Shown here one piece after another: positions 47,912-63,973 of a DNA stretch of 64,000 nucleotides. The stretch is from positions 186,001-250,000 of the forward strand of contig JAFDYT010000001.1 of assembly GCA_018266055.1 (NCBI GenBank), given 5' to 3'. Under the pieces are notes generated by a model. That model ran no database searches. It saw only the letters and a list, made by a program, of their open reading frames with translations, and was not told the origin of the DNA. A program made the translations under genes and the position numbers. Numbering within the stretch: the first letter of the stretch is position 1; every line of letters begins with the position of its first letter. The stretch is from Bacteroidota bacterium. Lineage in GTDB: Bacteria; Bacteroidota; Bacteroidia; Cytophagales; Cyclobacteriaceae.

Positions 47912-48325
47912 ATGAAAGCATACTTGCAGTCAAAAGTGAAGATCATACGCATTGCAAAAATTGTAGTGGCGTCGTTGCTTGGTGTGATGGTAGTGATTGA
48001 TATTGTTTTGGTGGCACTGGAGAAAGAAGGATTCCCCTCCTTCAGTTGGGTAGTGCGTGACCATCGTACGCAGCTGATTTGGCTTACGTTTCTTTTTGGT
48101 GGCTTGGTAGCCAAAGTGTTTTACAATCGGCGAGTAAATCTTAAAGAATCTGAAGCGTCGGGGTTTCTTACTTTTTTTGTGATGATTGGTTTACTCTTCA
48201 TTCTTGGTCACCTCATCGAAACCAAGATCAGTACGCTCAACGAACTAATCATCCTACTGTCAGGTGGACTTCTGGCGTATCGGGTGTGGCCTCAGTATTA
48301 TCAGGACACGAAGCCGAATAATTAA
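47912..48325 (+). CDS. Small membrane protein (137 aa), pair member 2
   Basis: About four hydrophobic segments: IIRIAKIVVASLLGVMVVID, QLIWLTFLFGGLVAKVFY, GFLTFFVMIGLLFILGHLIE and LIILLSGGLLAYRVWP. It begins 4 bp after pair member 1 and overlaps the end of the convergent lipoprotein gene by 4 bp. Function unknown. Confidence 0.62.
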   Translation: MKAYLQSKVKIIRIAKIVVASLLGVMVVIDIVLVALEKEGFPSFSWVVRDHRTQLIWLTFLFGGLVAKVFYNRRVNLKESEASGFLTFFVMIGLLFILGHLIETKISTLNELIILLSGGLLAYRVWPQYYQDTKPNN

Positions 48326-48699
48326 TTAAATCGTGTCGACCGTTGCACGATCTCCCAGCCGATGATTGTATCTTTTCGTACGCGGAACCGATTGAGAATA
48401 AAATATTTTCCTTTCGTGCCTGCTGGACCAACATAGGTGACCTCTGTCTTTGAATCTTTCACTATATCGGAAGTTAGTTCAGGGATTACTCCCTTGTCTT
48501 TGTAGCAATAAATTTTGTCGCCAGAAGGTAACGTTTCGACAGGCAAAACTCTTTTCCGGCTCCAGTCTGAGTCGTCATCCAACTTACGAATCGGCTGGCC
48601 AACCCATTGCTCCATAATATTTACCGGTAGGGCTTTACTGCCGCCGCACGCCGAAAGCGTAAAAGCAAAAAAGATCACGCAATAATTTTTCATGCTCAT
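48322..48699 (-). CDS. Small lipoprotein (end of the minus-strand cluster)
   Basis: 125 residues. Lipobox FTLSACGG (Cys18), then PVNIMEQWVGQPIRKLDDDS, IYCYKDKGVIPE and VTYVGPAGTKGKYFILNRFR. The mature part is mostly beta. No family recognised. Its start overlaps the stop of the preceding membrane lipoprotein gene by 4 bp; it is the last gene of the probable nine-gene operon. Confidence 0.62.
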   Translation of the reverse strand: MSMKNYCVIFFAFTLSACGGSKALPVNIMEQWVGQPIRKLDDDSDWSRKRVLPVETLPSGDKIYCYKDKGVIPELTSDIVKDSKTEVTYVGPAGTKGKYFILNRFRVRKDTIIGWEIVQRSTRFN

Positions 48700-49757
48700 T
48701 GATTTGTTTTTTTATTCTTCTCCTTGATGAAGTTGTAAAATTCAGTTCCTGTTTTCTTTGCTTCCTGTTCCAATTCGTCGCTAAGTTTTTTCTGTCCTGG
48801 TGCATTCATCTGCAGATATACTTCCAACGCTTGCTTTTGTATTTTTTGATGAGTTGTGCGTTCGTGAAGAGCGGCCTGATCGAGCAAGGAATTAAGATGA
48901 GCCGAGATTTGGTCGTGCTGGGCCTGAATACTTACCGCGGGCGCAATGCGGTCGTAGTCATCTCTGGGCAATTGATCGATCACACGCATCATCGCGAATG
49001 CAGCTTTCTTGTGTTTGCTAGCCAGGTGCGCCATGCGGTATGCCACGGCGCCTACAATAATAAGAAGCAAGCCGATGACGCCGGCAGTGATCTCCCATTG
49101 CGTTACTGTTTGTTTGACTTTATCCAGCGACTTGTTGGTAACAGAATCAAATTTTTCGAGCAAGGCAAATAGCTTTTTCTCCCATGAACTGTCGTATTCA
49201 CTAGCCAGTTGGGATAGCGACGAGTGTATGAGGGAATCAACAAGCAGACGTGTTTTCTTTCCAAGCAAAGAATCGCGCAGCAGCGAAACTTTCTGGAGTG
49301 TTACTTCTCCCAATAATTCATCGCGAAGCGCCGCCGATATCTTACGCATGCCGAGCGAGAGCGTATCGTTGCTGATTATTTTTATCAATGTCTTTTGGCC
49401 TTCGGCAGAAAGATGATCAAGTTGAGTCTTGAGCCAGGCGGAGGTAGCTTTGCTAAGCAAACTGTCGCGCACATTTTTTGATATCTTTTTTGTGCCGTCG
49501 TCAAGTTGAGCGATCAGCAATTTGGCAAGCGCTTTAATTTTGGCGCTGTCGTTGTGCAGCCCGTCAATCGCACCTTTGGCTGCACTGTCGGTGGAGCGTT
49601 TGATGATTCGGCCTACAGCTGGATTTTTGTCGAGATCGTTAACTACCTTCTCCAGCGTTTTTCGGGTTTGAAAAACCAGGCACGATTGAACAGCCAAAGC
49701 CAAAAACAATAAAACTGCTAACCCTTTTAATCGAGTGAAAATGACAGTAAGATTCAT
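48696..49757 (-). CDS. Membrane-anchored coiled-coil lipoprotein (hypothetical)
   Basis: 353 residues from ATG 49757 (the frame runs to 49853, but the lipobox LAVQSC, Cys26, fits this start). The mature part is a long Lys/Asp/Leu helical region (GRIIKRSTDSAAKGAIDGLH, KALAKLLIAQLDDGTKKISK), one membrane helix (WEITAGVIGLLLIIVGAVAY) and a C-terminal coiled coil ending in KEKNKKTNQ. It is probably an inner-membrane protein anchored twice. It sits directly downstream of the P450 gene. Confidence 0.6.
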   Translation of the reverse strand: MNLTVIFTRLKGLAVLLFLALAVQSCLVFQTRKTLEKVVNDLDKNPAVGRIIKRSTDSAAKGAIDGLHNDSAKIKALAKLLIAQLDDGTKKISKNVRDSLLSKATSAWLKTQLDHLSAEGQKTLIKIISNDTLSLGMRKISAALRDELLGEVTLQKVSLLRDSLLGKKTRLLVDSLIHSSLSQLASEYDSSWEKKLFALLEKFDSVTNKSLDKVKQTVTQWEITAGVIGLLLIIVGAVAYRMAHLASKHKKAAFAMMRVIDQLPRDDYDRIAPAVSIQAQHDQISAHLNSLLDQAALHERTTHQKIQKQALEVYLQMNAPGQKKLSDELEQEAKKTGTEFYNFIKEKNKKTNQ

Positions 49758-49812
49758 GCCGAAAATTTTTCTACACCATTTTCCAAAAAAATTGACACCT
49801 TCTTGATCATGT

Positions 49813-50979
49813 CTAATCAAACTCCAGACTAAAGGATTCCGGAAAGGGGCCATCGTACGTCACTTTGCCATGTGGCTGCACACGAATATTTTTCAAACGC
49901 ACAAGGCTACCCACAATCTCCGGAATTTGCACAGCATTGATATACCGACCGAAGCATGCATGGAGGCCATACCCAAAGTGCAAATATTCATTGGTGCGAT
50001 GCTCGTTGAAAGTGCCAGGGTCGGCAAAGGCTCGCTTGTCGTGCATGGCAGAGAAAATTCCGACGGCAATTTTCTTGTTGGCTTTGATTCGATGTTTGCC
50101 TACACGCTGTTCGCTTTTACTAAACCGCACAACAATCGGGTTGTGCGGATTGAACCGGAGGGCTTCGTAGCAAATATTTTTTAATGAAGCTGTGTCGGCT
50201 CCAATGGCTGTAGCCATCACGGTGGGTCGCTTTAAAAGCTCTTCCATCACCAGCACCACGCACTTGCTTGTAGTATCCACAGCCCCGATCATTAACCCGC
50301 AAATGTTCCGGCGAATAAAATCATCGGTGACAATCGGATTTGTTTTTTGCTGCAGTAGCAATCGACTTAACACAGTATCAGAAGGCAAGTCTCCACGTTC
50401 CAATTTTTGATGGCTTTCGCGAATCACTCCTGCCATGTATTCTTTTAACTCACCTGCAGCTTGCTTCGCGGCATTAGTTACTCCGGGGTCGTTATTCAGA
50501 TTGAGAAAGAGCTGGTGAAAAAGTTTCCGCATCCAGTCTTGCATTTTCTTTTTATCAGCTACCGGCACGCCGAAGTAATGTTCCAGCAAGGCCAGGGGAA
50601 CTACCCGTGAAAGTTGACTGACGACTTCTATGCGGTGTGTCGCCAGAAGTGGCGTGAGCAATTTGGAAATCTCTTCGCGTATAATTTGCTGAATTAGCAG
50701 AAGGTCGTCCCGTTTTACGCTCGCTTCCATAATACCTTTTTCACGATCGTGAACTTCGGACGCATCCATTCCCAAAAAGAAATCGAGACCCACGGCGTGC
50801 ATGTTGGCTGCGTTGATTTCGGCAATGGTAAAGTCCTTATCACGCGTGAGTATTTCTTTTACGCTGTCGTAGCGCGACACAATCACCCATGATCCAATAT
50901 TGAGCACCGGAAAGAAGGTTCGCAGAAATCCTGTTGCGATGCGAATGAATCTGGGGTTGCCAAGGAGTTGCGCAATCAT
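49813..50979 (-). CDS. Cytochrome P450
   Basis: 388 residues, no membrane anchor, so a soluble bacterial-type P450. I-helix IGAVDTTSK (A-V-D-T-T, 231-239), ExxR in YEALRFNP (E272-R275), and the haem-binding loop FGYGLHACFGRY with C342. All critical residues are present. It would bind O2 and hydroxylate a hydrophobic molecule; the redox partner is not in the window. The start overlaps the stop of the DyP peroxidase gene by 4 bp, so the two haem enzymes are translationally coupled. Confidence 0.92.
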   Translation of the reverse strand: MIAQLLGNPRFIRIATGFLRTFFPVLNIGSWVIVSRYDSVKEILTRDKDFTIAEINAANMHAVGLDFFLGMDASEVHDREKGIMEASVKRDDLLLIQQIIREEISKLLTPLLATHRIEVVSQLSRVVPLALLEHYFGVPVADKKKMQDWMRKLFHQLFLNLNNDPGVTNAAKQAAGELKEYMAGVIRESHQKLERGDLPSDTVLSRLLLQQKTNPIVTDDFIRRNICGLMIGAVDTTSKCVVLVMEELLKRPTVMATAIGADTASLKNICYEALRFNPHNPIVVRFSKSEQRVGKHRIKANKKIAVGIFSAMHDKRAFADPGTFNEHRTNEYLHFGYGLHACFGRYINAVQIPEIVGSLVRLKNIRVQPHGKVTYDGPFPESFSLEFD

Positions 50980-52358
50980 AAGCCCGCGATTTTTTTCAGT
51001 GCATTAATTCCAGGCATGAAAAAATAAGCTCCACCTTTCACGTAGGTGAACTGCGGCACATCGGTAAGTTTTCTCCGGACGGGACACGCCTGCACCGTAA
51101 ACTCACCGAGTTGATCTGGCTTTTGTATGCCGTTTACCGGCGGCTTGCCATCGATGCCTATGATCGGATCGGGATCGTTATAAAGATGATCAAACTTCTT
51201 GTTATTCATCCATTGCTGTTGAATGAATTCAAATTGCCTGCCGATGTTGGTGTTGAAGCAAATGAAGTACAAACCAACGTCCGAATTTTTTGATGACTGG
51301 ATGAGATCTTCCGGCTCGGCCGAAGGCGCAAGGGGTTCACCGTAAGGCCTTCCTCGTCGAAGGATGCGGTGCTTTTTGGACACACTCACTGATTCTTCTG
51401 GATCGTCGTTCATCCCATCGCGCGGATTGGCTTTACGAATGTGTGCTCCTACGGGACATTTTAATCCGAGCTTGTCGGCGTGATAATATCCAAAATCGTT
51501 GGCTTCCGATAATTTTTTTTCTTTGTGATCTTCAGTCGGCGACAAGGTGAGCGGTGTGCCCGAAGGATGCCGCCCGACCATGGCAGCGGCCAGTTGAATT
51601 GCTTCAGGAATTTTATTTTCACTTTTTTCCATCATATAATTCCAGAACCCTTTCACGTCTTGTTTGATTTGCCGGAACACCATGTACGATCCATTTTTCC
51701 CTAAATCAAAATTGTCTGCCAACACTGGCGAGAGCGGCAATTTTTCGTATTCGTTTTTGTATCCGAAGATAAATTCTCCGCTTGCTACCACATTGTTGAC
51801 GTTATCTTTCCTCTTGTGCTGCATTTCGCGAAGCGTAGGCTGTGAGATGCCATCATGAAAGCCGAAATGCTCTTTGTCGTGCGGCAACTTCTGCGAAGGA
51901 AGTGTATGCCATGCGTTGATTTGGTGATTCTTCAGTTGCACTTGGAGTTGGTTCAGGCGTTCATCAAGTTGTTCGCGGTTGACAGCGTAGATCATTAGCA
52001 TAAAATGAGTGTCGTTTTCTCCAGGCTTTCCCCACTCCCACGTGTTGGGAGCATTGTCATTGTAATCCCCTAATATCCGTTGACGAAAGGGAGATGTCAT
52101 GCCGTCATTAAATTCCAGGGAGAAATCATTTTTAAAAGAAAGATCAAGCTGCTTTATTCCTTCTTTGGTAAAAGCGATGTTCACTGCGTGAGTCTGCGGG
52201 TTGACGCTACCGCTGGTGACTGTAGGTGTAAGGTCCTTTAAGAAGGGACGGAGCAAATTTCGATCGTGGGCATGGCATAATAAAAAAGCCGAAGTTGGCA
52301 GTGTTTTATATCCCCGAATGAGTAAGCCTTGAATATCGCTGTAGTCTAAAGTTTCCAT
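50976..52358 (-). CDS. DyP-type haem peroxidase
   Basis: 460 residues, no Tat or Sec signal. The distal Asp of the DyP family lies in EHFGFHDGISQPTL (D169) and the proximal haem His in CPVGAHIRKANPRD (H306), with the distal Arg region RILRRGRPYG nearby. So the active site is complete. It oxidises substrates with H2O2. Being leaderless it is presumed cytosolic, or carried by a partner. It is co-transcribed with the P450 and the duplicated-domain protein. Confidence 0.9.
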   Translation of the reverse strand: METLDYSDIQGLLIRGYKTLPTSAFLLCHAHDRNLLRPFLKDLTPTVTSGSVNPQTHAVNIAFTKEGIKQLDLSFKNDFSLEFNDGMTSPFRQRILGDYNDNAPNTWEWGKPGENDTHFMLMIYAVNREQLDERLNQLQVQLKNHQINAWHTLPSQKLPHDKEHFGFHDGISQPTLREMQHKRKDNVNNVVASGEFIFGYKNEYEKLPLSPVLADNFDLGKNGSYMVFRQIKQDVKGFWNYMMEKSENKIPEAIQLAAAMVGRHPSGTPLTLSPTEDHKEKKLSEANDFGYYHADKLGLKCPVGAHIRKANPRDGMNDDPEESVSVSKKHRILRRGRPYGEPLAPSAEPEDLIQSSKNSDVGLYFICFNTNIGRQFEFIQQQWMNNKKFDHLYNDPDPIIGIDGKPPVNGIQKPDQLGEFTVQACPVRRKLTDVPQFTYVKGGAYFFMPGINALKKIAGL

Positions 52359-52388
52359 GTCGTTGTGTGATGAGGTGATATCTTTTAC

Positions 52389-53684
52389 TTAAAGTTTAGA
52401 AAGCCACTCCTGGCATTCTTCTGGCGTCATTGTTTTGAAGAGGCCTTGATGAATCAGATTATTGTTCAGTACGTTGACCACCGAAAGCGATTTGTAGGCT
52501 GTGTACCAAACTTGTGTTGGAATCTGATGAACGCGTGTCCAGTATTTGAACCGTTGCTCATCGGTCGCTCCATTCTGAATCAGGTTTTTCGTTTTAGGAA
52601 ACAAGTCTGTGTTACTCCACACGCCTGTCAAGCCCACGGCTGCTTTGTCTACAAAATCACCAAGATAACTTTCCCATGATCCATCAAAATTACTGAAGAA
52701 CAAAAGCCTTTTTCCTTCGTCAATGATTACCCAACGGGCGAAGTGAATGGTGGGTATGTTGCCTAGCTTTCCTTTGTTGTATAATACCATTGCCAGCAAG
52801 TTGATTCCCCACAGCACAAGTTTTAACAAACCAAGTCTGAATAGGCCGGGCTTTATCGCAACCAAATGTGTGAGTTGGTTTTGTACCGTAAAGTCTTCCC
52901 GATTGGTGAGGGAGGTGATTTGTGAAGTCAGTGTTACTTCACTTTTAATTTCAATCTGCGGATCAGTTTCTTCTTTCATGCGCAGTACCGCGTAGCCAAT
53001 CCCTAACAGCACTATAAGCGTGAGAAGAATCCAACCCAACACGTGCCAACCGAAAATTAGTCCGATAAAAATAAGAACGGCTGCCGCGATGAGAATTGGC
53101 TCCCAGATTGATTTTAGTTTGATTTCAGGTGGAGCCTCTTTCATCAAACTACTATAGTTTGTGTTAAGATGATTCACAATGTTTTGTTTGATCTGCTCCG
53201 GAGAATTATCCTGTTGTGGTATGGCATTCAAAAAATTTTCAATGGCAGTTCTGATTTTGTTTTGAAGAAGAATGGTGGCTACCGAGAGACCCCGATGCCC
53301 TACATAAAAAGCGTTGGGGTATGGCATTTTTTTACGGAGGATATACTCGGAAAAGGCACCGATCCCTCCTGGTTTATAACCTAGGCAGTGCCCGTAAACA
53401 AGGTCAAATCCGCTTCCGGCTTTGTCGTATAGTTCTGCAAGTAGGGAAGGTAAATCCCCATCGAAGTTTGCACTGAAGGCAAGCCAAGTCGGATGAGTTT
53501 TACCCTGCTCGATCATGGGTTCAATGATCACGAACCGTGCGAAATGAACAGACGGAAACAAACTGAAAGGAATGGTAGCGTTGCTTTCTACGTCCTGGTC
53601 AATCTGCAAAAGCAGTTGCCTCAGCGACGCTACACGTTCAGGTATTACCTCAGAAAGAACGGTGAGCGGAGATTGTTGAATCAT
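52389..53684 (-). CDS. Duplicated-domain membrane protein (HFARxVII type)
   Basis: 431 residues. Two copies of one domain: SVHFARFVIIEPMIEQGK...WLAFSANFDGDLPSLLAELY (about 45-170) and TIHFARWVIIDEGKRLLFFS-NFDGSWESYLGDFVDKA (about 305-425), joined by two membrane helices (ILIAAAVLIFIGLIFGWHVL and ILLTLIVLLGIGYAVL). The order H-F-A-R-x-V-I-I then N-F-D-G is shared by both. I do not know its family; the strand-helix rhythm is ferredoxin-like, the fold class of DyP and related proteins. It lies 30 bp upstream of the DyP gene and may be its membrane partner. Confidence 0.65.
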   Translation of the reverse strand: MIQQSPLTVLSEVIPERVASLRQLLLQIDQDVESNATIPFSLFPSVHFARFVIIEPMIEQGKTHPTWLAFSANFDGDLPSLLAELYDKAGSGFDLVYGHCLGYKPGGIGAFSEYILRKKMPYPNAFYVGHRGLSVATILLQNKIRTAIENFLNAIPQQDNSPEQIKQNIVNHLNTNYSSLMKEAPPEIKLKSIWEPILIAAAVLIFIGLIFGWHVLGWILLTLIVLLGIGYAVLRMKEETDPQIEIKSEVTLTSQITSLTNREDFTVQNQLTHLVAIKPGLFRLGLLKLVLWGINLLAMVLYNKGKLGNIPTIHFARWVIIDEGKRLLFFSNFDGSWESYLGDFVDKAAVGLTGVWSNTDLFPKTKNLIQNGATDEQRFKYWTRVHQIPTQVWYTAYKSLSVVNVLNNNLIHQGLFKTMTPEECQEWLSKL

Positions 53685-53708: not shown

Positions 53709-54734
53709 TTAATAGATTGCCTCTGACCTTTTCAGCTTGGTCTTAAATTCTTTGTTTATCAATTGCGGACTTTTTAGCTTAAGCAAATTGAAGTTGGTAA
53801 AGTAGGAGTCGATTGATGATTTTTGAATTCTTGTAATTTTAAGACAAGCAATTTGATTTGGTTGGGAAAAGAATTTTAGTAGTACGCTCTCCGATAGGTC
53901 AAATAATTTTCTAGCTACCTGCGTTGCATTTTGTTGTGCGGCCGAGTTACTTCCTGTCATAAATTTTGCCATGGATTGAATAGTGCAGTCATCTGCACCA
54001 GTAGCTGCCACTGACGCTTCGGTAGCTAAGCAAAAGCCAACGAAATAAATTCCGGATTTGTCGTTTTGAATTTGAGCGATCAGATGATCTGGAAGATCGG
54101 CCTTGAAATTTCCGGCGCTTATGGTTTTTGATTGGGCAAAATCAAACTTTGCATCAAGGCATTGCGCTCCTTCCTTAATACAGCTAAACGAAGCAAAGAC
54201 AGGCGTTAACGATTCTGTTACAGGAATGTAACCGGATGATCCGTTAGTCGGTACTTCAACCTGTTCTTCAATAAGCCATTGTTCAATTTTCAAAAACTTG
54301 GATTCGAGTTTTTGCTGTTGGTCTAGATAGATGGCACTGATTGAAGGATTACTCAAGTCCTGCCCGAAGAGGGAGTATTTAAAATTGCTGAGATCGGCAT
54401 TTATTTTTTTTACCGCATATTCATATTTTTTTGGTTGCACGTTGAATAGCCACGAAACCTGTGTGCTTAGCGCCACCAATGTGCTAAGACAAACAGCTAC
54501 CCAGGCAGCACCTTTTTTCATTGTATGAAGAACACCACTTACAATACTTAGTAATGCAGAAACGAGGTAAACGATATATTGCAAATTTCTCGTCTTCTCC
54601 CAATCAAGCGCTTTGTTACTCCACGTTTCATAAAAATGGTCGGCCACTATTTTGTATTCCGTTTGACTGACAGCTTCGAGGTTAATGCACAAAAGCAAAA
54701 CCAGAAGAACCAATGAGACGCAAATTGTTTTCAT
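53709..54734 (-). CDS. Hypothetical membrane protein with N-terminal helices
   Basis: 341 residues. An N-terminal signal-like helix (VSLVLLVLLLCINLEAVSQ), two membrane helices (YIVYLVSALLSIVSGVLHTM and AWVAVCLSTLVALSTQVSWL) and then a soluble Ser/Thr-rich domain with FASFSCIKEGAQCLDAKFDF and a Ca-free CTIQSMAKF segment. No family recognised. It is placed between the two membrane proteins of the operon. Confidence 0.58.
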   Translation of the reverse strand: MKTICVSLVLLVLLLCINLEAVSQTEYKIVADHFYETWSNKALDWEKTRNLQYIVYLVSALLSIVSGVLHTMKKGAAWVAVCLSTLVALSTQVSWLFNVQPKKYEYAVKKINADLSNFKYSLFGQDLSNPSISAIYLDQQQKLESKFLKIEQWLIEEQVEVPTNGSSGYIPVTESLTPVFASFSCIKEGAQCLDAKFDFAQSKTISAGNFKADLPDHLIAQIQNDKSGIYFVGFCLATEASVAATGADDCTIQSMAKFMTGSNSAAQQNATQVARKLFDLSESVLLKFFSQPNQIACLKITRIQKSSIDSYFTNFNLLKLKSPQLINKEFKTKLKRSEAIY

Positions 54735-54775: not shown

Positions 54776-55828
54776 TCATTGCGCTAAGGGCTTGTTCTTT
54801 TTATCGTCTGGTTTCAAGCTGCTGCGCAGGTTGGCCACTTTGCTTAGCACATCAAACCAGAATGGAGCGCCAAGACAAATCGCCAGAATAGTCATCATCA
54901 GTCCTCCTAGTTTTTTGAGCACATACCAACACTCGCCACTTTGCTTTCTATATTGAGCATATTCCTTGTCGGGCCAACCGATAGGAATGTATAAGTTCAT
55001 ACTGGCCACAGCCGTGTCCATGGCCGCCTTTTGGTTTTTCATTTGATTGACCAGATCGTTGAGTGAATGTGCTACTTGATGAACAGAATCGGTTGTGGCG
55101 CTGTCTTTTGCCAAGGCCGTCGCTTTTTGCTGAAGGGCAGAAACTTTTTTGATATAACTGCTGTCTTGCGATGCCGTGTAAGCCGCGTGAGCAAGTTTTA
55201 GTCGTGCGTCGGGGTTACTATAAAGATATGATGCCAGTTGCAGCGAGTCGATATTGAGCGCTACCGTAATAATAGAGGCAAATACAAAAGTGTACCACAC
55301 TGTCTTTCGTTTGTAGTGACCGGTAAGCCGCTCCATAATAGCGTTAAACCAGTGCTCGATTTGCTCTTCAAAATGATCGACATCGCTGACCGCAGCATTC
55401 ATTTTTTTCTGCGCGCTGGTTTTGGCAATAAAGGAGCGAAGCAATGTTTTGATCTCCGGGGGAAACGCTGACTTGGTAATAGCGTCGTTCAGGTTGGTAA
55501 TCTCAAAAGATGAGGTTGTTATGGTGTCTTTATTTTCGGCTGATTCTTTAGCAGAAGTATACACTAGCTCTGCAATGGTTTTGGCAAAACTCTTTGCATT
55601 CATATAATGTGCCGACTTACCTGGCGAACTCATTCCATTGAGCAACACATGATCTGTGATTTTGTCAGCCACATCACCGAACGTTTTTTTAATCCAGTGA
55701 GTCAAAACTTCTGAGCGCAAGCCAATAAACCCTGAATAGAGTTCAATGCAAGAGTTATTGATGAGCGCCAAAAGAAAATAAATGAAGATGAGGCCGGCGA
55801 TCAAATCAAGTATTGGGAATGATGTCAT
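54776..55828 (-). CDS. Conserved membrane protein (LDLIAGLIFIYFLL type)
   Basis: 350 residues. The N-terminal LDLIAGLIFIYFLLALINNS segment, a cytoplasmic helical middle (EQIEHWFNAIMERLTGHYKR then KTVWYTFVFASIITVALNID), a Ser/Lys-rich extracytoplasmic loop and the closing PIGWPDKEYAQY and MMTILAICLGAPFWFDVLSK helix are the pattern of a widespread but uncharacterised bacterial membrane protein family. Three to four helices in total. Its role in the P450/DyP operon is unknown. Confidence 0.65.
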   Translation of the reverse strand: MTSFPILDLIAGLIFIYFLLALINNSCIELYSGFIGLRSEVLTHWIKKTFGDVADKITDHVLLNGMSSPGKSAHYMNAKSFAKTIAELVYTSAKESAENKDTITTSSFEITNLNDAITKSAFPPEIKTLLRSFIAKTSAQKKMNAAVSDVDHFEEQIEHWFNAIMERLTGHYKRKTVWYTFVFASIITVALNIDSLQLASYLYSNPDARLKLAHAAYTASQDSSYIKKVSALQQKATALAKDSATTDSVHQVAHSLNDLVNQMKNQKAAMDTAVASMNLYIPIGWPDKEYAQYRKQSGECWYVLKKLGGLMMTILAICLGAPFWFDVLSKVANLRSSLKPDDKKNKPLAQ

Positions 55829-55895: not shown

Positions 55896-56435
55896 CTAAC
55901 TCGCAAATTTTTGAATCGTGTTTACCAACGACACTAATTGGTCGGCATAATTTGGCGATTGTGCATATCCCGCTGCTGCAATTGCTGACACAAACTTCAC
56001 CGGGTCATTCTTTACAGCGAGAGCCGCTGCATACCGAAGGCTGCCGTCTGGCAATTTGGTTTTGAAAAAAACATTGGTGTGATCGGTAAAACTTTCTTCA
56101 GGAGTGTTGTACTTTCTGAAATACGAAGTACCAGTGTATTTAAAAAACTTTACGCCTTTAATGGTGGTGGGCTCAACCTTGGCTATAGTCACAAGCCCTA
56201 TTTGCTGTGGAGTAAGGTCGCTGCGCTTGCTGTATTCGAAGGTGGTGAGCAGCTGCTCATTCCCGTTAAGGCCATCAAAATCTTTTACTCCAAAAAACAT
56301 ATTGCCCGGAGCGTGTTCGCCCCATCCGCTTTCGAGTGCGGCCTGCGCCAGAATCGCTACCGCGCTGATTCCGGATTTGGTTTCCGTTTGCTTGGCAAAG
56401 GGGAGGTATTTTTTTACAAAGTCATTGGGTGTCAT
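55896..56435 (-). CDS. Leaderless GH73 glucosaminidase (peptidoglycan hydrolase)
   Basis: 179 residues, no signal peptide. GISAVAILAQAALESGWGEH holds the catalytic Glu (E35), then APGNMFFGVKDFDG, YFRKYNTPEESFTDHTNVFF and the closing ADQLVSLVNTIQKF. These are the segments of glycoside hydrolase 73, as in FlgJ. The enzyme cleaves between GlcNAc and MurNAc in peptidoglycan. A wall hydrolase with no export signal, in an operon with other leaderless enzymes, is notable. Confidence 0.88.
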   Translation of the reverse strand: MTPNDFVKKYLPFAKQTETKSGISAVAILAQAALESGWGEHAPGNMFFGVKDFDGLNGNEQLLTTFEYSKRSDLTPQQIGLVTIAKVEPTTIKGVKFFKYTGTSYFRKYNTPEESFTDHTNVFFKTKLPDGSLRYAAALAVKNDPVKFVSAIAAAGYAQSPNYADQLVSLVNTIQKFAS

Positions 56436-56465: not shown

Positions 56466-57734
56466 TCAGATTTTAACATAGGCCCTGAACAAATCGATGG
56501 TAGCCGGGCCGATACCCGGAACACGGTCAAGGTCTTCAATCGAGGAGAAATTGCCATGGCGTTGACGATACTTTACAATGGCGCTCGCCTTAGTGTTACC
56601 TATTCCGGGCAATGTCTCAAGTTCTGTTTCTGAAGCGGTGTTTACATTCACCAGACCGGGAACGATATTAGGAGTAGGCGTGGGCTCAGCGTGCGGATCT
56701 ATCTTCGACCAATGGCCGGTGGCATCAGCTTCAAGCACAATGCTGTCGTCCCAGCCGGTGGCGTAGATTGCTTTCGAGACGCTGTAGTCTACAAATGTTT
56801 TGGCGCCAGTGCCCGCTTTTACCGGAATAGTTTGACGTGGTGTAGTAATACTTTTTTGCAACATGTCGAGCACTCCTTTGTTCGGATGTCCATAGGCCCA
56901 GGCCGTCCACAATACATGCCGGCTCAGGTCGCCCATACCAATTAATGCCATTTTAGGAGTGATGCGGTTTAGCAGTTCCTGTGTGGTACCGTTCTTCGAA
57001 CCATGATGGCCAGTTAGGTACACGTCGGCATCCAATAGATTCGTGCCTTGATATTTTTTTAACAGACTAGCCAACGCAGCCTCCTCAAGATCACCGGTCA
57101 CAAGCATAGACGAAGCGCCATAATCAATCCGAATCACGAGCGAGTGATTGTTTGCATTTTTAAAATCGATGTCGGTCCATCCGGGATTCGTCGCCGATGT
57201 ACCCCACAGAATTTTTATTGTCGGATCGGTGCCGGTGCAGTTCACTGCGTCGATTACGCTGTTGGTTATGCCGTTTACACCCACGTCGGCTGTGGTTATC
57301 GCTTCAAAGCCGATGTCGTCAGAAGGATCTGAATTGTCTTCTGAGTCTTGTGCGGCACGGTGTAGTTTAATTTGCCCTGCTTTACCGGAGCCTTCTTCAA
57401 GTCCGTCGGTCACAGCATTTTTTATAACATACGGAGGAGTTAATACCACCGGAACACCTAATGTATGATCCTTGTGCGGATGAGTAAGATAAACACACTT
57501 CAGGGTGTGGTTCAGGTCACTCCGGCGGGTGAAGAAGTCGTCGAGATAAGCTTTCAAAGCCTCGGAAGAATTGTATTGAGCGTCAGTCTCGCCGCCGGTA
57601 TCAATAAGAATAGCAGCGCAAGGAAACTCAATAAGGGTGGCGCATCCTTGGCCCACATTGATGAGGTGCACTCGCATCTGAGCATTAGCGGTGTAGATAA
57701 GCAAACTCATCAGCACCGCAAGTAGTGTTTTCAT
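56466..57734 (-). CDS. Secreted metallo-beta-lactamase-fold/HhH protein (ComEC-like + ComEA-like)
   Basis: 422 residues. Signal peptide (MKTLLAVLMSLLIYTANAQ), then an MBL domain: VHLINVGQGCATLIEFPCAA, ILIDTGGE, and the metal motif LTHPHKDHTLG (H85-x-H87-x-D89-H90), with later GDLEEAALASLL and TGHHGSKNGT. This is the ComEC/Rec2-type MBL fold, implicated in DNA or nucleotide handling. The C-terminus (about 360-422) is a pair of helix-hairpin-helix motifs (NTASETELETLPGIGNTKAS and FSSIEDLDRVPGIGPATID) as in ComEA. It is presumably a periplasmic or surface nuclease-like protein. First gene of the probable nine-gene operon. Confidence 0.82.
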   Translation of the reverse strand: MKTLLAVLMSLLIYTANAQMRVHLINVGQGCATLIEFPCAAILIDTGGETDAQYNSSEALKAYLDDFFTRRSDLNHTLKCVYLTHPHKDHTLGVPVVLTPPYVIKNAVTDGLEEGSGKAGQIKLHRAAQDSEDNSDPSDDIGFEAITTADVGVNGITNSVIDAVNCTGTDPTIKILWGTSATNPGWTDIDFKNANNHSLVIRIDYGASSMLVTGDLEEAALASLLKKYQGTNLLDADVYLTGHHGSKNGTTQELLNRITPKMALIGMGDLSRHVLWTAWAYGHPNKGVLDMLQKSITTPRQTIPVKAGTGAKTFVDYSVSKAIYATGWDDSIVLEADATGHWSKIDPHAEPTPTPNIVPGLVNVNTASETELETLPGIGNTKASAIVKYRQRHGNFSSIEDLDRVPGIGPATIDLFRAYVKI

Positions 57735-57969: not shown

Positions 57970-58614
57970 TTAGTATTTGGCGGACGGACTGAGTGGCTTG
58001 ATGGCCCGAAAACCCAGGGTAAAAAACAAGTATGACAAAATATTGAACACGTTATTGAGAAACCAGAGCGGATTTAATAATCGTGTATCCATCAGCGTCA
58101 TGATAAAAAAAGTACAGAACGTGTAGAAAAAGATGCCGGCCAGAAACCAAAAGGAGGCAGAGGCAAAAAGATTTTCCTCACTTTCGGAAAGTGCAAGTAA
58201 GGCGAATCCGGTCACAAACGCTCCGGCTATTTCATAGCTCGGAATAAACAATCCACTGGCGGTGCTTTCGGTAAGCCGCGGATAAAGAAACATGCAAAAT
58301 ACCCACCAGAAAGGGGTGAGAATCAGGAGAATTTTTGAAATGATTTTCAAAACCGGCTGATTCGTAACGACTGATGCAAACCAGAAATAAAAAAGAGCTT
58401 CTATCAGAGCGTAAAGATCAAAGACTTCATGTCCAGGCCAATTCTCGTTGACCTGGAGCATTATCCACACACTTAAATCTGTTAAAAACCCGATGATCAA
58501 AAAAAGCAAAAACAGCCGCGCAGGGTTGTCGGCTGTTTTGAATTTGTAGAGCCCGAGCCCAATCGGTAAAATCACCGGGAGGGCGAGCAGGCCGCGAATG
58601 GTTACTAATGTCAC
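57970..58614 (-). CDS. Multi-pass membrane protein (hypothetical)
   Basis: 214 residues with about seven hydrophobic helices, for example LLALPVILPIGLGLYKFK, LFLLFLIIGFLTDLSVWIML, ILLILTPFWWVFCMFLYP and FLAGIFFYTFCTFFIMTLMD. The family is common in Bacteroidota and uncharacterised. Begins 12 bp after the stop of the 58.6 kb protein and ends 235 bp before the MBL/HhH gene. Confidence 0.65.
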   Translation of the reverse strand: MTLVTIRGLLALPVILPIGLGLYKFKTADNPARLFLLFLIIGFLTDLSVWIMLQVNENWPGHEVFDLYALIEALFYFWFASVVTNQPVLKIISKILLILTPFWWVFCMFLYPRLTESTASGLFIPSYEIAGAFVTGFALLALSESEENLFASASFWFLAGIFFYTFCTFFIMTLMDTRLLNPLWFLNNVFNILSYLFFTLGFRAIKPLSPSAKY

Positions 58615-58626
58615 ACAACGAATATA

Positions 58627-59397: not shown

Positions 59398-59422
59398 AGA
59401 CGTTTTGGTTTATGGTTAAAGT

Positions 59423-59686
59423 TTAAGTTTCGAAGTTGAACCCGCCGTGGTCTTTGCCCGTGCGGCTTAAGGCACGTGTAAGTTGAAATTGCGCAGTCTT
59501 GGGCGAGGAAATCGTAATTGAAAATGAGCTCCCCTGATTTCCGTTTGCAAACCAATGGAGGATATACCCTTGGTCTTCTGGAACTTCTACTGAAATTGAA
59601 TCACTATTTTTTGCAATCAACTCGTGATCCAGATATAACCAAAGTGAGCCATTACTAATAAAAGTAGAAATAACGATTTTTACCAT
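59423..59686 (-). CDS. Small unknown protein, first gene after the LytTR-like element
   Basis: 87 residues, mostly beta: MVKIVISTFISNGSLWLYLD, SISVEVPEDQGYILHWFANG, SSFSITISSPKTAQFQLTRA. No family recognised. A stand-alone small domain of this kind may be a carrier or inhibitor. The start is 92 bp downstream of the candidate operator at 59774-59808. Confidence 0.55.
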   Translation of the reverse strand: MVKIVISTFISNGSLWLYLDHELIAKNSDSISVEVPEDQGYILHWFANGNQGSSFSITISSPKTAQFQLTRALSRTGKDHGGFNFET

Positions 59687-59773
59687 GGTGGTCTTTTTTG
59701 ATTTAACACGTTAAACATAGTGCAAAGTCTACCTCTGGAACAGCACCAAATAGTAAATGGAACTTTTGAGACA

Positions 59774-59808
59774 GAAATCGGTAGGAATTGGAAAGAAAAC
59801 GGTTAGCG
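59774..59808 (-). promoter_or_regulatory. Candidate LytTR operator (direct repeats 21 bp apart), copy 2
   Basis: CGGTAGGA (59779-59786) and CGGTTAGC (59800-59807) start exactly 21 bp apart, with AAGAAAA before the second repeat. Matches the element at 18243-18277 at about four of five positions and in the same orientation. It sits at the very end of the LytTR gene and 92 bp upstream of the next gene, the position for a promoter-proximal activator site. Confidence 0.52.
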
Positions 59809-60555
59809 GTGTTTTAGCAAAAGCAGGAATTCATCCTTCCTCCGACGCGATACATCAATGTGCGAGCCGTCGGCCATAAGTACCACCCCGCCTTCTCCCT
59901 TGAGGTACTCTGACACGAAATCGAGGTTGATCAAATGAGAATTGTGTATCCTGAAAAACCGATAGTCGCCCAGCATAACTTCTACCTCCTTTAGGGTTTT
60001 TGAAACCATTATTTTGTTTTTGTTTACCGTGTGAAAGGTGGTGTAGGTATTGTCCGACTCGCACCGTACAATATCTTTTATGGCGACATACAGAAAGCCG
60101 GTGAGGGTGGGCAGCGCAATCTTTGTTTTTGTATCCGATGGAGAAAGCTGCAGGTTAGACAGAAGATTTCTGATATTGGCTGCGTTATCGGTGGCTAATT
60201 TTCTGGCGCGGAATTTTTCCAGCGCTCCGGCCAACTCATCTTTGTCGATTGGTTTTAAAAGATAATCTATCGCCGAAAGCCGAAAGGCCTGCACGGCAAA
60301 ATGATCGTAGGAAGTTGTAAATATGATTTCAAAGGGAATGTGGTCAAGCATCTGCAGCAAATCAAAGGAAGTTCCCGAAGAAATCATTACATCCAATAAT
60401 GCAAGGTCAGGTTTGGCAGACTCAATTAAATTTTTACCCTCGTCGATGGAAGAGGCTACGCCTACGATCTGAAAATCAGGGTAAGCGCCGAGCATTTCCA
60501 ACATTGCTTCTTGCTGATGTTTTTCATCTTCTACCAAAACAACTTGATAACTCAT
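59803..60555 (-). CDS. LytTR-family response regulator (minus-strand cluster)
   Basis: 250 residues. CheY-like receiver (YQVVLVEDEKHQQEAMLEML, D55 in LALLDVMISSGTSFDLL, K in YLLKPIDKDEL) and LytTR domain (YVAIKDIVRCESDNTYTTFH, FFRIHNSHLINLDFVSEYLK and SRRRKDEFLLLL). The start is 3 bp after the kinase gene, so the pair is a two-component system. The candidate operator at its 3' end may be its own target. Confidence 0.92.
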   Translation of the reverse strand: MSYQVVLVEDEKHQQEAMLEMLGAYPDFQIVGVASSIDEGKNLIESAKPDLALLDVMISSGTSFDLLQMLDHIPFEIIFTTSYDHFAVQAFRLSAIDYLLKPIDKDELAGALEKFRARKLATDNAANIRNLLSNLQLSPSDTKTKIALPTLTGFLYVAIKDIVRCESDNTYTTFHTVNKNKIMVSKTLKEVEVMLGDYRFFRIHNSHLINLDFVSEYLKGEGGVVLMADGSHIDVSRRRKDEFLLLLKHR

Positions 60556-60558
60556 AGT

Positions 60559-61449
60559 TTAATTAAGAAAAGGAATGGTGATAGATACTTTCTTTCCATT
60601 GGCGCCATCGGAGTGAGGCACAATGGTAAAGCCAGCCTGAGTGTGGTATAGCGAGTTAATTACTTTAAGCCGGTCTTGAATAAGAGACATTCCCATGGAC
60701 GTTTTTTTCACCAGGTGCGATAAATCCAAATCAGATTTTGGCACATTGCTTTGACCGTTGTCGCGTACTTCACATAAAATGTGGCGATCATCCTTTACTG
60801 AAAACCGGATGTCAATCAGGCCACCGCTCCCCAATTGATTAAGTCCATGCCAAATGGAGTTTTCAATAAATGGCTGTATTATCATGGGTGGGATTTCTAT
60901 GGTGTCGGGTGTGAATCCCGATTCAAACTCAATATTAAAATCAAACGAATGGTTTAAGCGAAGTTGCTCAAGCTGAATGTAATGTCGAAGAGCATCAATT
61001 TCGTCGGAGAGTGGCACCATTGGTTGGGACGAACTTTCCAATACATGACGAATTAGTTGAGAGAATTTTATGAGATACTCTCCCGCACCAGCCTGATTAC
61101 TATGCATAAAATGATGGATCGAGTTCATGCAATTAAAAATAAAATGCGGGCTCATTTGGGCACGCAGCGCTTTGAGTTCACCTTCGGCCAGACTGAGTTT
61201 AAAATTAGCCTCTACTTGTTTAAAGTGAGATTCTCTTTTGGATCGATAGAAAACAAAAACGATAAACGAGAAGGCTACTACGACCGGAATAAGTGCAAGT
61301 AATACTGTGCGCTGCACCTGATCATCTTCTTTCTGAATGAGTGCCGATAAATTAGTGGCAGCATCCTGAAATAAAAGGAATCCCCACTGGGGTTTCTCCA
61401 ACAGGCTAAAGCAAGTACAGATAAATCCAGCAAAGCACCCTAACATCAT
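60559..61449 (-). CDS. LytS-like histidine kinase with a short sensor region
   Basis: 296 residues. N-terminal hydrophobic segment (GCFAGFICTCFSLL), a short linker, one membrane helix (LLALIPVVVAFSFIVFVFYR), then His_kinase with SPHFIFNCMNSIHHFMHS (H102) and HATPase IQPFIENSIWHGLNQLG. The large TPR sensor domain seen in the kinases at 14-16 and 44-46 kb is missing, so the kinase must sense through a partner protein or the membrane. The next gene encodes its LytTR regulator. Confidence 0.87.
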   Translation of the reverse strand: MMLGCFAGFICTCFSLLEKPQWGFLLFQDAATNLSALIQKEDDQVQRTVLLALIPVVVAFSFIVFVFYRSKRESHFKQVEANFKLSLAEGELKALRAQMSPHFIFNCMNSIHHFMHSNQAGAGEYLIKFSQLIRHVLESSSQPMVPLSDEIDALRHYIQLEQLRLNHSFDFNIEFESGFTPDTIEIPPMIIQPFIENSIWHGLNQLGSGGLIDIRFSVKDDRHILCEVRDNGQSNVPKSDLDLSHLVKKTSMGMSLIQDRLKVINSLYHTQAGFTIVPHSDGANGKKVSITIPFLN

Positions 61450-61629
61450 AGACGATATTAAGGTAGCATTTTTTGATGAATGAAGCGCTACAGGTAGTGG
61501 CTTAGCGCCCGAAAAAATAAATTTTTACTTAGGTCTTGACACCTACTATTTGTTTGAGCTGAGGAGGTACTTTTTAAAGTGTTAGGGCTCAAGAACGGCC
61601 ATATAGAGCAGGCTAAAAATACTTCCCAA

Positions 61630-62382
61630 TTAGGCGAGCACAAATTTATCTTCAAACTCAGGTTCTGAAATTACGCTGAGTGCATCTTTGATTTTATCGG
61701 TGGTGAAGCCGTCAACGCCCAGGCTGAGGTAAGTTCGCATAGAGTCCTTACAGTTTACTGTCCAGGCATATACCTGGTTGGGTTTTACTGCGCTTGCGCT
61801 GTCTCTAAAGCGGATCGCTGTCATTATTTCAATGAAATAATCTTTAGAAATGGCTGAAACAGCCGGAGCTTTTGGCCCGCAAGCATACGTGTAATTCATT
61901 CTTATTTCTTTGAAGAAATCCAGGGCATCCTTTGCACTATATCCGTCAAGTCCAATGGATTCTTTTTCATCTTTCGGAACAAATCCATTAAAGCTCCCGA
62001 TTTGCTTTTTGTCTCGTGTGGTTACGCCAAGAGCAACTCCAGGAAGGGAAAAATTTGAGCGGACGACTTCGAAGAACCTGTTTAAATCAAAGTGGCTTAG
62101 ATTCTTGATATCAAAAAGAATTCTCGCCAGCCGTAACGGGCATTCATCTTTTTTGCTGGCAAGTATTAGGCCTTGCAACTCGGTGAGGTAATCAGCCAAT
62201 CGCGGACCTCGTTTTGGTGTGGTAATAAGTTTTGACCACAGCGGAGCCAAGTCCATCACGTAAAAATCATTGTCGATGAAGTAAACATCTGGCTCTAACG
62301 CATTGGCCCCGGCGGCGAGGCATTCAATAGCTTCTTCTACCGAATTGGGGTTTCTTGCGATAAGATAGAAGGGACGTTTCAT
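61630..62382 (-). CDS. Sphingomyelinase-D/phospholipase-D-like protein, paralogue 2
   Basis: 250 residues, no signal peptide. Close to paralogue 1 (17393-18157) over the whole length: YLIARNPNSVEEAIECLAAG, ANALEPDVYFIDNDFYVMDL, RILFDIKNL and AWTVNCKDSMRTYLSLGVDG. The first catalytic His of the family is replaced by Arg (R10), and the second catalytic His is absent as in paralogue 1, while the Mg ligands E30 and D32 and the D/K pair remain. It is therefore probably a binding protein or an enzyme of altered chemistry rather than a standard phospholipase D. Confidence 0.7.
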   Translation of the reverse strand: MKRPFYLIARNPNSVEEAIECLAAGANALEPDVYFIDNDFYVMDLAPLWSKLITTPKRGPRLADYLTELQGLILASKKDECPLRLARILFDIKNLSHFDLNRFFEVVRSNFSLPGVALGVTTRDKKQIGSFNGFVPKDEKESIGLDGYSAKDALDFFKEIRMNYTYACGPKAPAVSAISKDYFIEIMTAIRFRDSASAVKPNQVYAWTVNCKDSMRTYLSLGVDGFTTDKIKDALSVISEPEFEDKFVLA

Positions 62383-62536
62383 TTCCGTTGTTTAAAAATT
62401 TCCGAACCAGTATTCCTTGTTTTACTTAGACACTGATGAGGACCTAAAAGTTGAAAGCTGGAATAAAAAATAATTACACTATTTGCTTATTTAACGTTGA
62501 AAACACCCGAATTCGTGTTGGTTACCTCAATTAAAT

Positions 62537-62695
62537 TTAGGACTTAAGAAAAGACTTACCCATGGACGTTTGCAAATAAAATTTCGCAATCGAATTAGCA
62601 ACGCTAATAACCAACCATCCTAAAATCACCCACATCAGGCAAAACGATAGTAAATCGTTTGCGAGAATTTTTGATGATGAATTATTTTTTGCCAT
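62537..62695 (-). CDS. Small membrane protein (52 aa), short ORF
   Basis: Found by reading the minus strand between two larger genes. The product starts MAKNNSSSKILANDL, has one membrane helix (LSFCLMWVILGWLVISVA) and ends SMGKSFLKS. It is complete with ATG 62695 and TAA 62537-62539. The sequence is protein-like with hydrophobic/polar balance of a small inner-membrane or holin-like peptide. Evidence for expression is only positional: it is 42 bp downstream of the peptidase gene on the same strand. Confidence 0.4.
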   Translation of the reverse strand: MAKNNSSSKILANDLLSFCLMWVILGWLVISVANSIAKFYLQTSMGKSFLKS

Positions 62696-62737
62696 GGTTC
62701 AATGTTTTTCAAAACGAAAAACCAATGAGCTGGTTAC

Positions 62738-63532
62738 TCAAGATTTTTTCTTCACTGTTGTTGGTGTTACTTCAACCAAACGAATGGTCCAAAAATCGTC
62801 GGCCAGGTTTTCCGAGAGCAAATAATCATAGGGCATGGTAAAATATCCATTTAGCCCCCAACTGGCTCCCCAACTATTTCTAATGATAAACCTTTTGGTA
62901 GAATCTTGATAACCTACGGCCATTACGGCATGACCTCCGGCTTGTGCCTCATTTTTCTTAGGAAGGTTGAGTTTGCCGCTCTTGGCTACGGCTTCACTTT
63001 CGAACGATTCGTATACGGTGAACCCGAAAACAAATGGATATCCCTCTGCCAGACAACCTTTCATTTGGTTAAGGTTGCGTGCGATGCGATGGTAGGAAGT
63101 TACCTGATGATCGCGTGCAACAGTATAACAACTATTCGCAGGTCTGTTGGCAAATTGATTGGGATTGTAAGGCCACATGTTTTCAGGACAAACGCCGAGC
63201 TTATTCACACTTTTTATTCCATCACGAATCAAGGCGCCGCTATCGCTGTTTACAGTGTGCTCGATCTCTCGCTCGTTATAATATATGAATAAGCGCGAAG
63301 GCATGAACTCTTTGCTCGGAGCTTGCTTGCGAAGTTCAAATTCAAAAGCTGCACCAATTGCATTGGCCGTGCAACTACCCAATTGCCCTTGGTCATACAC
63401 CGGTGGGCATTGCTTTGTCAAATCTACCTTTGATGGTAATTTTCTCAGTAATGGCTTTGGAGCTGCATATTGCAAGTCTCGTTGGTCGGGAAGATCGGGC
63501 AGCCAACCGTAGCGAGCTAATTTGTGGGCCAT
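62738..63532 (-). CDS. Leaderless papain-family (C1) cysteine peptidase
   Basis: 264 residues, no signal peptide and no long propeptide. YGWLPDLPDQRD opens the bacterial C1 subgroup, then VYDQGQLGSCTANAIGAAF holds the catalytic Cys54 (with Gln48), GGHAVMAVGYQ the His201 and RFIIRNSWGASWGLNGYF the Asn219. All catalytic residues are intact, so it should be an active endopeptidase. A cytosolic, inhibitor-free papain would be toxic, so export or activation by a partner is likely. Lies 27 bp downstream of the TerB-like gene. Confidence 0.9.
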   Translation of the reverse strand: MAHKLARYGWLPDLPDQRDLQYAAPKPLLRKLPSKVDLTKQCPPVYDQGQLGSCTANAIGAAFEFELRKQAPSKEFMPSRLFIYYNEREIEHTVNSDSGALIRDGIKSVNKLGVCPENMWPYNPNQFANRPANSCYTVARDHQVTSYHRIARNLNQMKGCLAEGYPFVFGFTVYESFESEAVAKSGKLNLPKKNEAQAGGHAVMAVGYQDSTKRFIIRNSWGASWGLNGYFTMPYDYLLSENLADDFWTIRLVEVTPTTVKKKS

Positions 63533-63559
63533 GGAATTCGGATTTGGATGATGGTTAAT

Positions 63560-63973
63560 TTATTTATTATTCGATTGTGTAGTTTGTTTGCTTGCTTTTA
63601 CCAGGCGGGCTGTCATCTCCACATCTTCAAAATCAATTTCAGAGTCTTTTAAGGAGTAAAGCAACCACCGAACTTCTTTGATGTGTGTTTTACTTTCTTG
63701 CTCGGCCAGATGGTAGAGGTGAGCAAGTGCGCATAATTTTTCCTGATCGTTGCATAGATTCAACAAATGAACGCCGTACTGAAAAAGCTCGCGTTCTGTT
63801 TTGGTGAGCACTGCATCTTTAAATATGTGAATCAGTGTTTCTGGAATTTCTTCCTGGATTTGCAAATCACGAATCGCTTGCTTTTCCCGCTCGTCTACAG
63901 ATTTATCTATGTTCACCAGGAGGTGTACAAAATAAAGCAGTCCTAAATGGTAATTTGCGTTTGGTAAGCCCAC
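63560..63973 (-). CDS. TerB-like small helical protein
   Basis: 137 residues, start codon GTG 63973 with an in-frame stop upstream. YFVHLLVNIDKSVDEREKQA and the following helices fit the TerB/tellurite-resistance-like domain (acidic helical, often metal-linked). The C-terminus is polar (KASKQTTQSNNK). TerB-domain proteins accompany phage-defence and stress systems. First gene of the visible minus-strand cluster; any gene further upstream is outside the window. Confidence 0.65.
   Translation of the reverse strand: MGLPNANYHLGLLYFVHLLVNIDKSVDEREKQAIRDLQIQEEIPETLIHIFKDAVLTKTERELFQYGVHLLNLCNDQEKLCALAHLYHLAEQESKTHIKEVRWLLYSLKDSEIDFEDVEMTARLVKASKQTTQSNNK

Follow-up and report, generated by a model that had tools for sequence, protein, structure and literature searches.

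The question raised by the stretch of DNA presented above is whether a 15.6-kb run of minus-strand genes in it is a single system. The stretch, hereafter called the window, is 64,000 nucleotides long and corresponds to positions 186001 to 250000 of contig C11 of assembly G000 (4.79 Mb, rated 100% complete); the run occupies positions 48322 to 63973. A preliminary description made from the letters alone had seen in this run one possible new system of lytic and heme enzymes, several of them without export signals. We find that the 15.6-kb stretch is real but consists of several modules and is not one system. One of these modules contains a two-repeat membrane protein of an unnamed family, which we call HFAR after its IHFARW motif, next to a DyP-type peroxidase (DyP) and a cytochrome P450 (P450). 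HFAR, DyP, and P450 almost certainly make up one functional unit, which we refer to as the core.

The strand run and its core

The main open reading frames (ORFs) between 48322 and 63973 are all on the minus strand, as had been reported, but the list of ORFs of ≥80 amino acids (aa) holds 17 of them and not 18. Gaps of 355, 180, 116, and 235 bp divide the stretch into several transcription units. The minus-strand run also extends about 10 kb beyond the window, with eight further minus-strand ORFs of ≥120 aa reaching to L009:10310, and therefore the strand run delimits no system. Among the ORFs past the window end we recognized, by eye, a two-component pair, a MoxR-like ATPase, and a transglutaminase-like protein.

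Gene neighborhoods in a second genome of the genus, G031, gave a clear picture. On one contig of that genome the homolog of the window's papain-type peptidase is at 1.44 Mb, HFAR is at 2.91 Mb, and the homolog of a window protein with MBL and HhH domains is at 3.59 Mb; the peptidase, MBL, and P450/DyP genes are >600 kb from one another. HFAR, DyP, P450, and a second membrane protein, g11, are neighbors at 2.91 Mb. Among the 17 window proteins, these four were the only ones that matched any of nine compared loci. The preliminary description had proposed to look for conserved synteny of the P450, the DyP, the duplicated-domain protein (HFAR), and the C1 peptidase, and had taken independently scattered homologs as the mark of an accidental cluster. 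The first three occur side by side, as separate genes or fused, both in the taxonomic order to which the window belongs and in Alphaproteobacteria, but the C1 peptidase is separate. Since the core is conserved and the peptidase is elsewhere, by that rule the cluster as a whole is mostly an accident of neighboring modules. One system of 17 or 18 genes was rejected because its members are apart in G031 and because the strand run has no border.

HFAR, DyP, and a variable third enzyme

HFAR (52389..53684, minus strand, 431 aa) has repeats at residues ∼1 to 190 and ∼250 to 431 and, by hydropathy, a hydrophobic stretch at ∼188 to 237. The duplication noted in the preliminary description is real: when the two halves were compared as profiles, hhalign gave a probability of 99.7% (E = 1e-25). 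A central hydrophobic helix stretch was present in all 26 aligned HFAR proteins (hydropathy), and the sequence has no N-terminal leader. The window HFAR had no match above the cut-off in Pfam or NCBIfam, and a comparison with the PDB gave nothing convincing; across the 26 members there were scattered weak family matches, with no more than three members matching any one family. That HFAR is a paralog of DyP was considered and is unsupported (hhalign probability, 0.1 to 0.2%). AlphaFold models made from input alignments of only 4 and 2 rows (window and L007 sequences) had a mean pLDDT of 47.9 for the C-terminal repeat, with a low-confidence beta-alpha-beta-beta-alpha order, and of 38.7 for the whole protein. 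A ferredoxin-like fold for the repeats is our guess from these models.

Of 58 near relatives, counting the window's own genome, 5 have HFAR; a draw of 390 genomes from the order gave 27 with HFAR (20 of 129 genera), and a draw of 395 from the phylum gave 1, which was the window's own genome. It was also found in one named metagenome-assembled genome of the Cyclobacteriaceae and in 19 plasmid records, all from Alphaproteobacteria, 9 of which were read. A viral origin was considered and dropped: 35 pattern matches in the viral_contigs collection yielded none that was confirmed (the phages collection was not searched).

We read 43 loci, 42 of which had a recognizable HFAR; many are from the same genera. 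Left out of the 42 was an HFAR fragment in G683, and a 36-residue match in G046:C29 was not taken in either. (The G683 fragment, at L078, ∼9208 to 9534, is C terminal, lies in a frame of 137 codons near ORFs that by eye are transposase-like, and is probably a remnant.) Seven proteins were entered by coordinates: the G052 DyP, two from Skermanella, two from TH2, and those labeled Sophoriradicis and CC1099. DyP adjoins HFAR on the same strand, with HFAR first, in 40 of the 42 loci, as separate genes in 33 and as fusions in 7. The separate genes overlap or are within 33 bp of each other in 29 of the 33 pairs. The only HFAR loci without DyP, those of G046 and G607, are both at contig ends.

The fusions are of two kinds. 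HFAR is fused to DyP in Rhizobium leguminosarum, R. sophoriradicis, Rhizobium sp. CC1099, and, in a shorter version, Sinorhizobium medicae. P450, HFAR, and DyP are fused into one protein on plasmids of Pararhizobium, Novosphingobium, and Sulfitobacter (annotated as 1,423, 1,443, and 1,620 aa, respectively). Skermanella has the three as adjacent genes in the window's order, and G031 has the same triad in a different order (P450, HFAR, DyP). In Pfam scans of the three triple fusions, DyP was just above the cut-off in two and P450 was below it in one. For the Rhizobium, Sinorhizobium, and TH2 proteins, DyP was assigned with our own profile (E = 1e-69 to 1e-101 where reported). Distances in the HFAR and DyP trees were correlated over 36 loci (r = 0.84), and none of 2,000 permutations gave a value as high; G471c, G600, Smedi, and G661 did not enter this comparison. 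As judged from gene arrangement in these genomes, the linkage of HFAR to DyP is nearly certain.

The window DyP (50976..52358, minus strand, 460 aa) has the distal motif GFHDG and the proximal motif PVGAHIRKANP; a distal Asp and a proximal His are marks of DyP-type peroxidases. It matched TIGR01413 with 122.4 bits (cut-off, 100.5) and PF20628 with 37.3 bits (cut-off, 20) and was the only PF20628 match in its genome. Its best solved matches were 8re3, 8re2, 7anv, and 4g2c. In a pattern search of 37 DyP proteins, one of which (from G661) is not linked to HFAR, the distal motif was present in 33 and the proximal motif in 35. The window DyP thus resembles stand-alone DyP-type peroxidases in its heme motifs and in scoring above the TIGR01413 cut-off, but it is paired with HFAR and has no visible leader.

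The window P450 (49813..50979, minus strand, 388 aa) overlaps DyP by 4 bp and is the only gene in the G000 genome matched by PF00067 (E = 8e-21). It has the ExxR motif as EALR, the Cys loop FGYGLHACFG, and GAVDTT in the I-helix. Within the DNA read around each of the 42 loci, P450 was the third enzyme in 8, a catalase-related protein was found in 18, no locus had both, and 16 had neither; at least 4 of these 16 (G052, G046, G457b, and G471a) are on short contigs. The catalase-related gene is on the same strand in 11 of its 18 loci. The closest PDB match for a profile of this family was 3e4w (E = 4e-16); true catalases came next (E = 4e-6), followed by a weak match to 1u5u, the coral allene oxide synthase-lipoxygenase (E = 3e-4). 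Entry 3e4w was deposited as a putative uncharacterized protein; we take it to be a catalase-related peroxidase, and we know of no link between it and DyP or HFAR.

In the P450s the Cys aligned in all eight, and six fit the strict loop pattern. The acid-threonine pair of the I-helix is absent in five of the eight (L007, Skermanella, and the three fusions). Loss of this acid-alcohol pair is known among P450s that catalyze hydroperoxide rearrangement or run on peroxide. HFARs that are accompanied by a P450 are in three places in the HFAR tree (window/G031/G733, L007, and the Alphaproteobacteria), some nodes being weakly supported, which suggests that the third enzyme has been swapped.

g11 and the other genes of the window

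The membrane protein g11 (54776..55828, minus strand) has N- and C-terminal helices and the C-terminal motif LGAPFWFDVL; the window member of this LGAPFWFD family has no Pfam name. It lies close to the core both in the window and in G031. A search of 380 genomes of the order found it in 60, and it is also in 12 plasmid records, which come from Bacteroidota, Proteobacteria, and Cyanobacteria; loci of the family include L085, L087, L088, L131 to L138, and L143 to L162. Its neighbor in the window is a leaderless GH73-type enzyme and in G004 a CHAP/peptidoglycan-binding protein; in G031 a phage-type lysozyme (PF00959) is three genes away. A hydrolase was recognized beside g11 in 9 of 20 loci of the order. 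Six of these hydrolases were confirmed by Pfam (a DUF900 hydrolase, two S8 peptidases, an amidase plus M15, a patatin, and a GDSL protein); of the remaining three, one is an S8 peptidase below the cut-off and two were assigned by likeness to a scanned relative. By eye, most are leaderless, and a hydrophobic stretch is present at the N terminus of the GDSL proteins. The plasmid-borne g11 genes adjoin amidases, a CHAP/wall hydrolase, patatin, or vanadium haloperoxidases, with other or more distant neighbors in the Vitreoscilla and Nostoc records. The earlier remark about leaderless wall enzymes holds insofar as g11 relatives adjoin varied hydrolases, but g11 is common and 11 of the 20 loci of the order have no recognized hydrolase neighbor. 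Fourteen of the 27 genomes with HFAR also belong to the set of 60 with g11, a proportion above the overall rate, and where the two share a contig in G557, G568, and G661 they are 190 to 260 kb apart. A looser link between the HFAR module and a g11 module is possible. g11 may act in holin-like export, in anchoring, or in self-lysis.

The other genes of the window are likewise on the minus strand. A small protein of 125 aa that by eye is lipoprotein-like (48322..48699) overlaps by 4 bp the ORF at 48696..49853, a probable lipoprotein-like protein that had no relative in the nine loci compared. The start of the latter may be further downstream (codon 33, ∼49757), which would remove its overlap with P450. 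A membrane protein of 341 aa (53709..54734) ends 24 bp before HFAR and had a weak match to DUF4231 (E = 0.025, below the cut-off). Beside g11 is the GH73-type glucosaminidase (55896..56435; PF01832, E = 3e-23), followed by the MBL and HhH protein (56466..57734), which is ComEC/ComEA-like and has an N terminus that by eye is signal-like, in agreement with the view that it is secreted. The MBL protein, whose homolog in G031 is 37% identical, is outside the core. The LytTR regulator (59803 to 60555) and the LytS-type histidine kinase (60559 to 61449) are several genes upstream of the core.

Farther upstream is a leaderless GDPD-like protein (61630..62382), also outside the core, that had been called sphingomyelinase D-like. 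That call comes down to a C-terminal GDPD match to residues 202 to 231 (26.7 bits; cut-off, 23.6), and by eye the two catalytic histidines expected of the fold were not seen; the protein is perhaps noncatalytic or an altered enzyme. The papain-type peptidase (62738 to 63532; PF00112, E = 2e-17) has a Cys, His, and Asn triad visible by eye. It is next to a gene (63560 to 63973) whose earlier assignment to TerB did not reach the family cut-off (E = 0.076; 13.7 versus 24.4 bits). The peptidase homolog in G031 (74% identity) also adjoins a TerB-like gene, and the two are paired in 3 of 5 small loci compared (L090, L091, and L093). The peptidase and the TerB-like gene are an independent pair in the genus, unlinked to the core. 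Overall, the domains named in the preliminary description were borne out for DyP, P450, the GH73-type glucosaminidase, the papain-type peptidase, MBL plus HhH, the LytS-type His_kinase, and LytTR, and hydropathy showed no membrane-like stretch in the peptidase, the glucosaminidase, or the GDPD-like protein, consistent with their being leaderless.

Two further sets of genes were observed. A multihelix protein of ∼207 to 243 aa recurrently precedes a histidine kinase and LuxR-type regulator pair (L009:549-2698, L012 in G031, L150:1260-3347, and L162:6706-9073; by eye), and the window ORF at 57970 to 58614 resembles it, by eye, without such a pair. On Rhizobium/Sinorhizobium plasmids, genes near HFAR-DyP encode a DNA/RNA nonspecific endonuclease (L020, L022, L140, and L142), an endonuclease/exonuclease/phosphatase-type protein (L020 and L022), heparin lyase (L020, L140, and L142), and CHAT-domain proteins (L020 and L141).

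The enzymes without export signals had been likened to the effector arsenals of injection systems. The whole G000 genome had no match to the phage or extracellular contractile injection system sheath (PF04984) or to VipB of the type VI secretion system (PF05943); among 14 control genomes, 3 matched PF04984 and 1 matched PF05943. An injection arsenal was rejected because neither was found in the genome. A known antiphage defense system was also rejected, since in a PADLOC scan of 10 proteins no model matched over most of its length: there were partial matches for the MBL protein (seven) and HFAR (LeoBC, E = 0.002) and none for the others.

What the core may do

What would HFAR, DyP, and a third heme protein do together? 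The best explanation of the whole, to which we give somewhat less than even confidence, is that HFAR-DyP and a variable third heme protein oxidize a lipophilic substrate stepwise. It draws on adjacency and fusions, the order of HFAR and DyP, the exchange of the third enzyme, the mostly intact heme motifs, the hydrophobic stretch, and the correlated trees. In this scheme the functional unit would be HFAR-DyP plus the variable third heme protein, a P450 in the window. HFAR would span the inner membrane through its central helices, with both repeats in the cytoplasm, and would anchor the soluble DyP and P450 to the membrane. DyP would oxidize a lipophilic substrate with H2O2 or an organic hydroperoxide, the P450 (elsewhere the catalase-related protein) would rearrange or oxygenate the product of DyP, and the end product would be an oxylipin-like or other oxidized lipid. 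We infer the sidedness, tethering, lipophilic nature of the substrate, reaction order, and biological role. A membrane-tethered multiheme oxidation cascade acting on a lipophilic substrate can thus be proposed tentatively. An improbable further possibility is that HFAR serves as a membrane scaffold of a new kind, its two repeats binding a reactive lipid hydroperoxide and handing it on from DyP to the P450 or catalase-related synthase, that the exchangeable last enzyme sets the product, and that the module is an independently evolved bacterial counterpart of the cyclooxygenase/P450 and lipoxygenase/allene oxide synthase cascades.

Neighboring genes fit peroxide or lipid chemistry in a few loci. 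In 3 loci of one genus (one scanned) HFAR is immediately preceded by a patatin-like protein, and 5 loci have an FAD/ALO-type oxidase close to the module (four were scanned, of which one fell just below the cut-off). Eleven loci, from six genera, have very large proteins near the module that form one loose BLAST cluster (1,706 to 1,975 aa in ten loci and split in one). The four that were scanned (L064:13868-18988, L076:12286-18210, L080:3237-8402, and L059:1289-6574; 1,707 to 1,975 aa) each have protein kinase, AAA_16, and GAF domains according to Pfam, and their outputs differ: an adenylate/guanylate cyclase, a histidine kinase plus receiver, a HisKA_3 kinase, and a SpoIIE phosphatase. Each of the three triple fusions is preceded by a TPR-rich protein of one cluster. 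Given these giant sensor proteins and TPR-rich proteins, the module looks signal controlled.

A number of observations weigh against stepwise oxidation by a conserved unit. Four separate HFAR-DyP pairs have gaps of 137 to 524 bp, one of them (in G491) with a small ORF between the two genes, and HFAR is split into two ORFs in G471c. The domains of the fusions are divergent, several being at or below the Pfam cut-off. Pfam found no DyP domain in the scanned Rhizobium, Sinorhizobium, and TH2 proteins, and in those of Rhizobium and Sinorhizobium it found none of any kind. The correlation of the HFAR and DyP trees includes a contribution from shared host descent. Only 26 of the 37 proteins contain a third DyP pattern, HR[IL].RR, and DyP enzymes are best known for acting on dyes and phenols. 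Sixteen of the 42 loci show no third heme enzyme, 7 of the 18 loci with a catalase-related gene have it on the opposite strand, and the Pfam Catalase family matched 1 of 3 scanned catalase-related proteins, below the cut-off. The P450s of the window, G031, and G733 retain the D/E-T pair of the I-helix (DTT or ETT) and could be ordinary O2-activating monooxygenases. The HFAR structure predictions are of low confidence, and a Foldseek search with the models against the PDB gave nothing below an E value of 0.08. No lipoxygenase was found among the module neighbors scanned (many neighbors were unscanned), and in G600, at an HFAR-DyP-catalase-type locus, a type III polyketide synthase (L061:6339-7439) is directly after DyP.

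A rather unlikely alternative is peroxide defense, in which HFAR-DyP and a catalase-like protein or P450 would act at the membrane during stress to remove H2O2 or lipid hydroperoxides, with no dedicated product. DyP and the catalase superfamily are peroxide enzymes, the catalase-related profile scores true catalases above the coral allene oxide synthase, and the large kinase-AAA-GAF sensors near the module would suit a stress response. However, scavenging should need neither a P450 nor a conserved two-repeat membrane partner, and the module is in just 27 of the 390 genomes of the order. We consider it improbable that the module instead tailors a metabolite, oxidizing a nonlipid phenolic or polyketide made elsewhere with HFAR as a substrate-binding helper. 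P450s and DyPs are common tailoring enzymes, the polyketide synthase adjoins the module in G600, and the module is also on alphaproteobacterial plasmids; against this, no other biosynthetic core gene was recognized beside the module in the loci read, where neighbors were partly scanned, and the membrane-like stretch is in all 26 HFARs. A single arsenal, in which an injection or lysis system would deliver leaderless lytic and oxidative effectors with g11 as the common membrane part, would accord with the hydrolases and haloperoxidases beside g11 relatives, the overlap of HFAR and g11 genomes, and the nuclease and heparin lyase genes beside Rhizobium HFAR-DyP, but it is very unlikely and as one system largely refuted by the lack of a sheath or VipB match, the scattering of peptidase, MBL, and core genes in G031, the 46 of 60 g11 genomes that are not among the HFAR genomes, the distances between g11 and HFAR, and the many g11 loci with no recognized hydrolase.

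With stepwise oxidation of a lipophilic substrate as the preferred reading, the nearest systems by working principle appear to be the fungal dioxygenase-P450 fusions (linoleate diol, allene oxide, and epoxy alcohol synthases), as described in PMC13049297, and the coral catalase-related synthases fused to lipoxygenase, as described in PMC5617202. The fungal enzymes and the module share a heme peroxidase-type domain paired with or fused to a P450, and the bacterial HxC Cys-pocket motif named in PMC13049297 is present in all eight P450s here. The module differs in that a two-repeat membrane protein accompanies the enzymes and in being known from genes alone. Pfam found DyP and P450 domains but no animal-peroxidase/cyclooxygenase-type dioxygenase domain in the window proteins and the three triple fusions, and because its peroxidase is a DyP the module is not in the fungal Ppo/LDS family. 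As to the single polypeptide of that family, the window genes are separate, and one polypeptide is found on three alphaproteobacterial plasmids. Our best reading is that HFAR-DyP-P450 would work like the fungal fusions but be built from unrelated parts. The coral system likewise has a catalase-related heme protein with an oxidative partner, as in 18 of the 42 HFAR loci; here DyP takes the place of lipoxygenase as the partner, the window carries a P450 rather than a catalase-related protein, and the catalase-related family scores true catalases above the coral enzyme.

What is new here is an unnamed protein family, HFAR, at the center of a predicted heme-enzyme module. Among the papers listed in searches of the open-licence literature, none gives in its title or the opening of its abstract an account of a DyP-P450 or DyP-catalase gene pair or triad of this kind. 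If our reading is correct, a partner has been found for a group of DyP peroxidases, enzymes whose natural substrates are, to our knowledge, mostly unknown. Heme enzymes would gain an unnamed membrane protein family, and a peroxidase-P450 fusion would have arisen from unrelated parts. The three-in-one proteins on plasmids would be a compact test case for the passage of substrate between heme centers, and the swap of P450 and catalase-related protein in the same slot would be a natural experiment on the role of the third enzyme.

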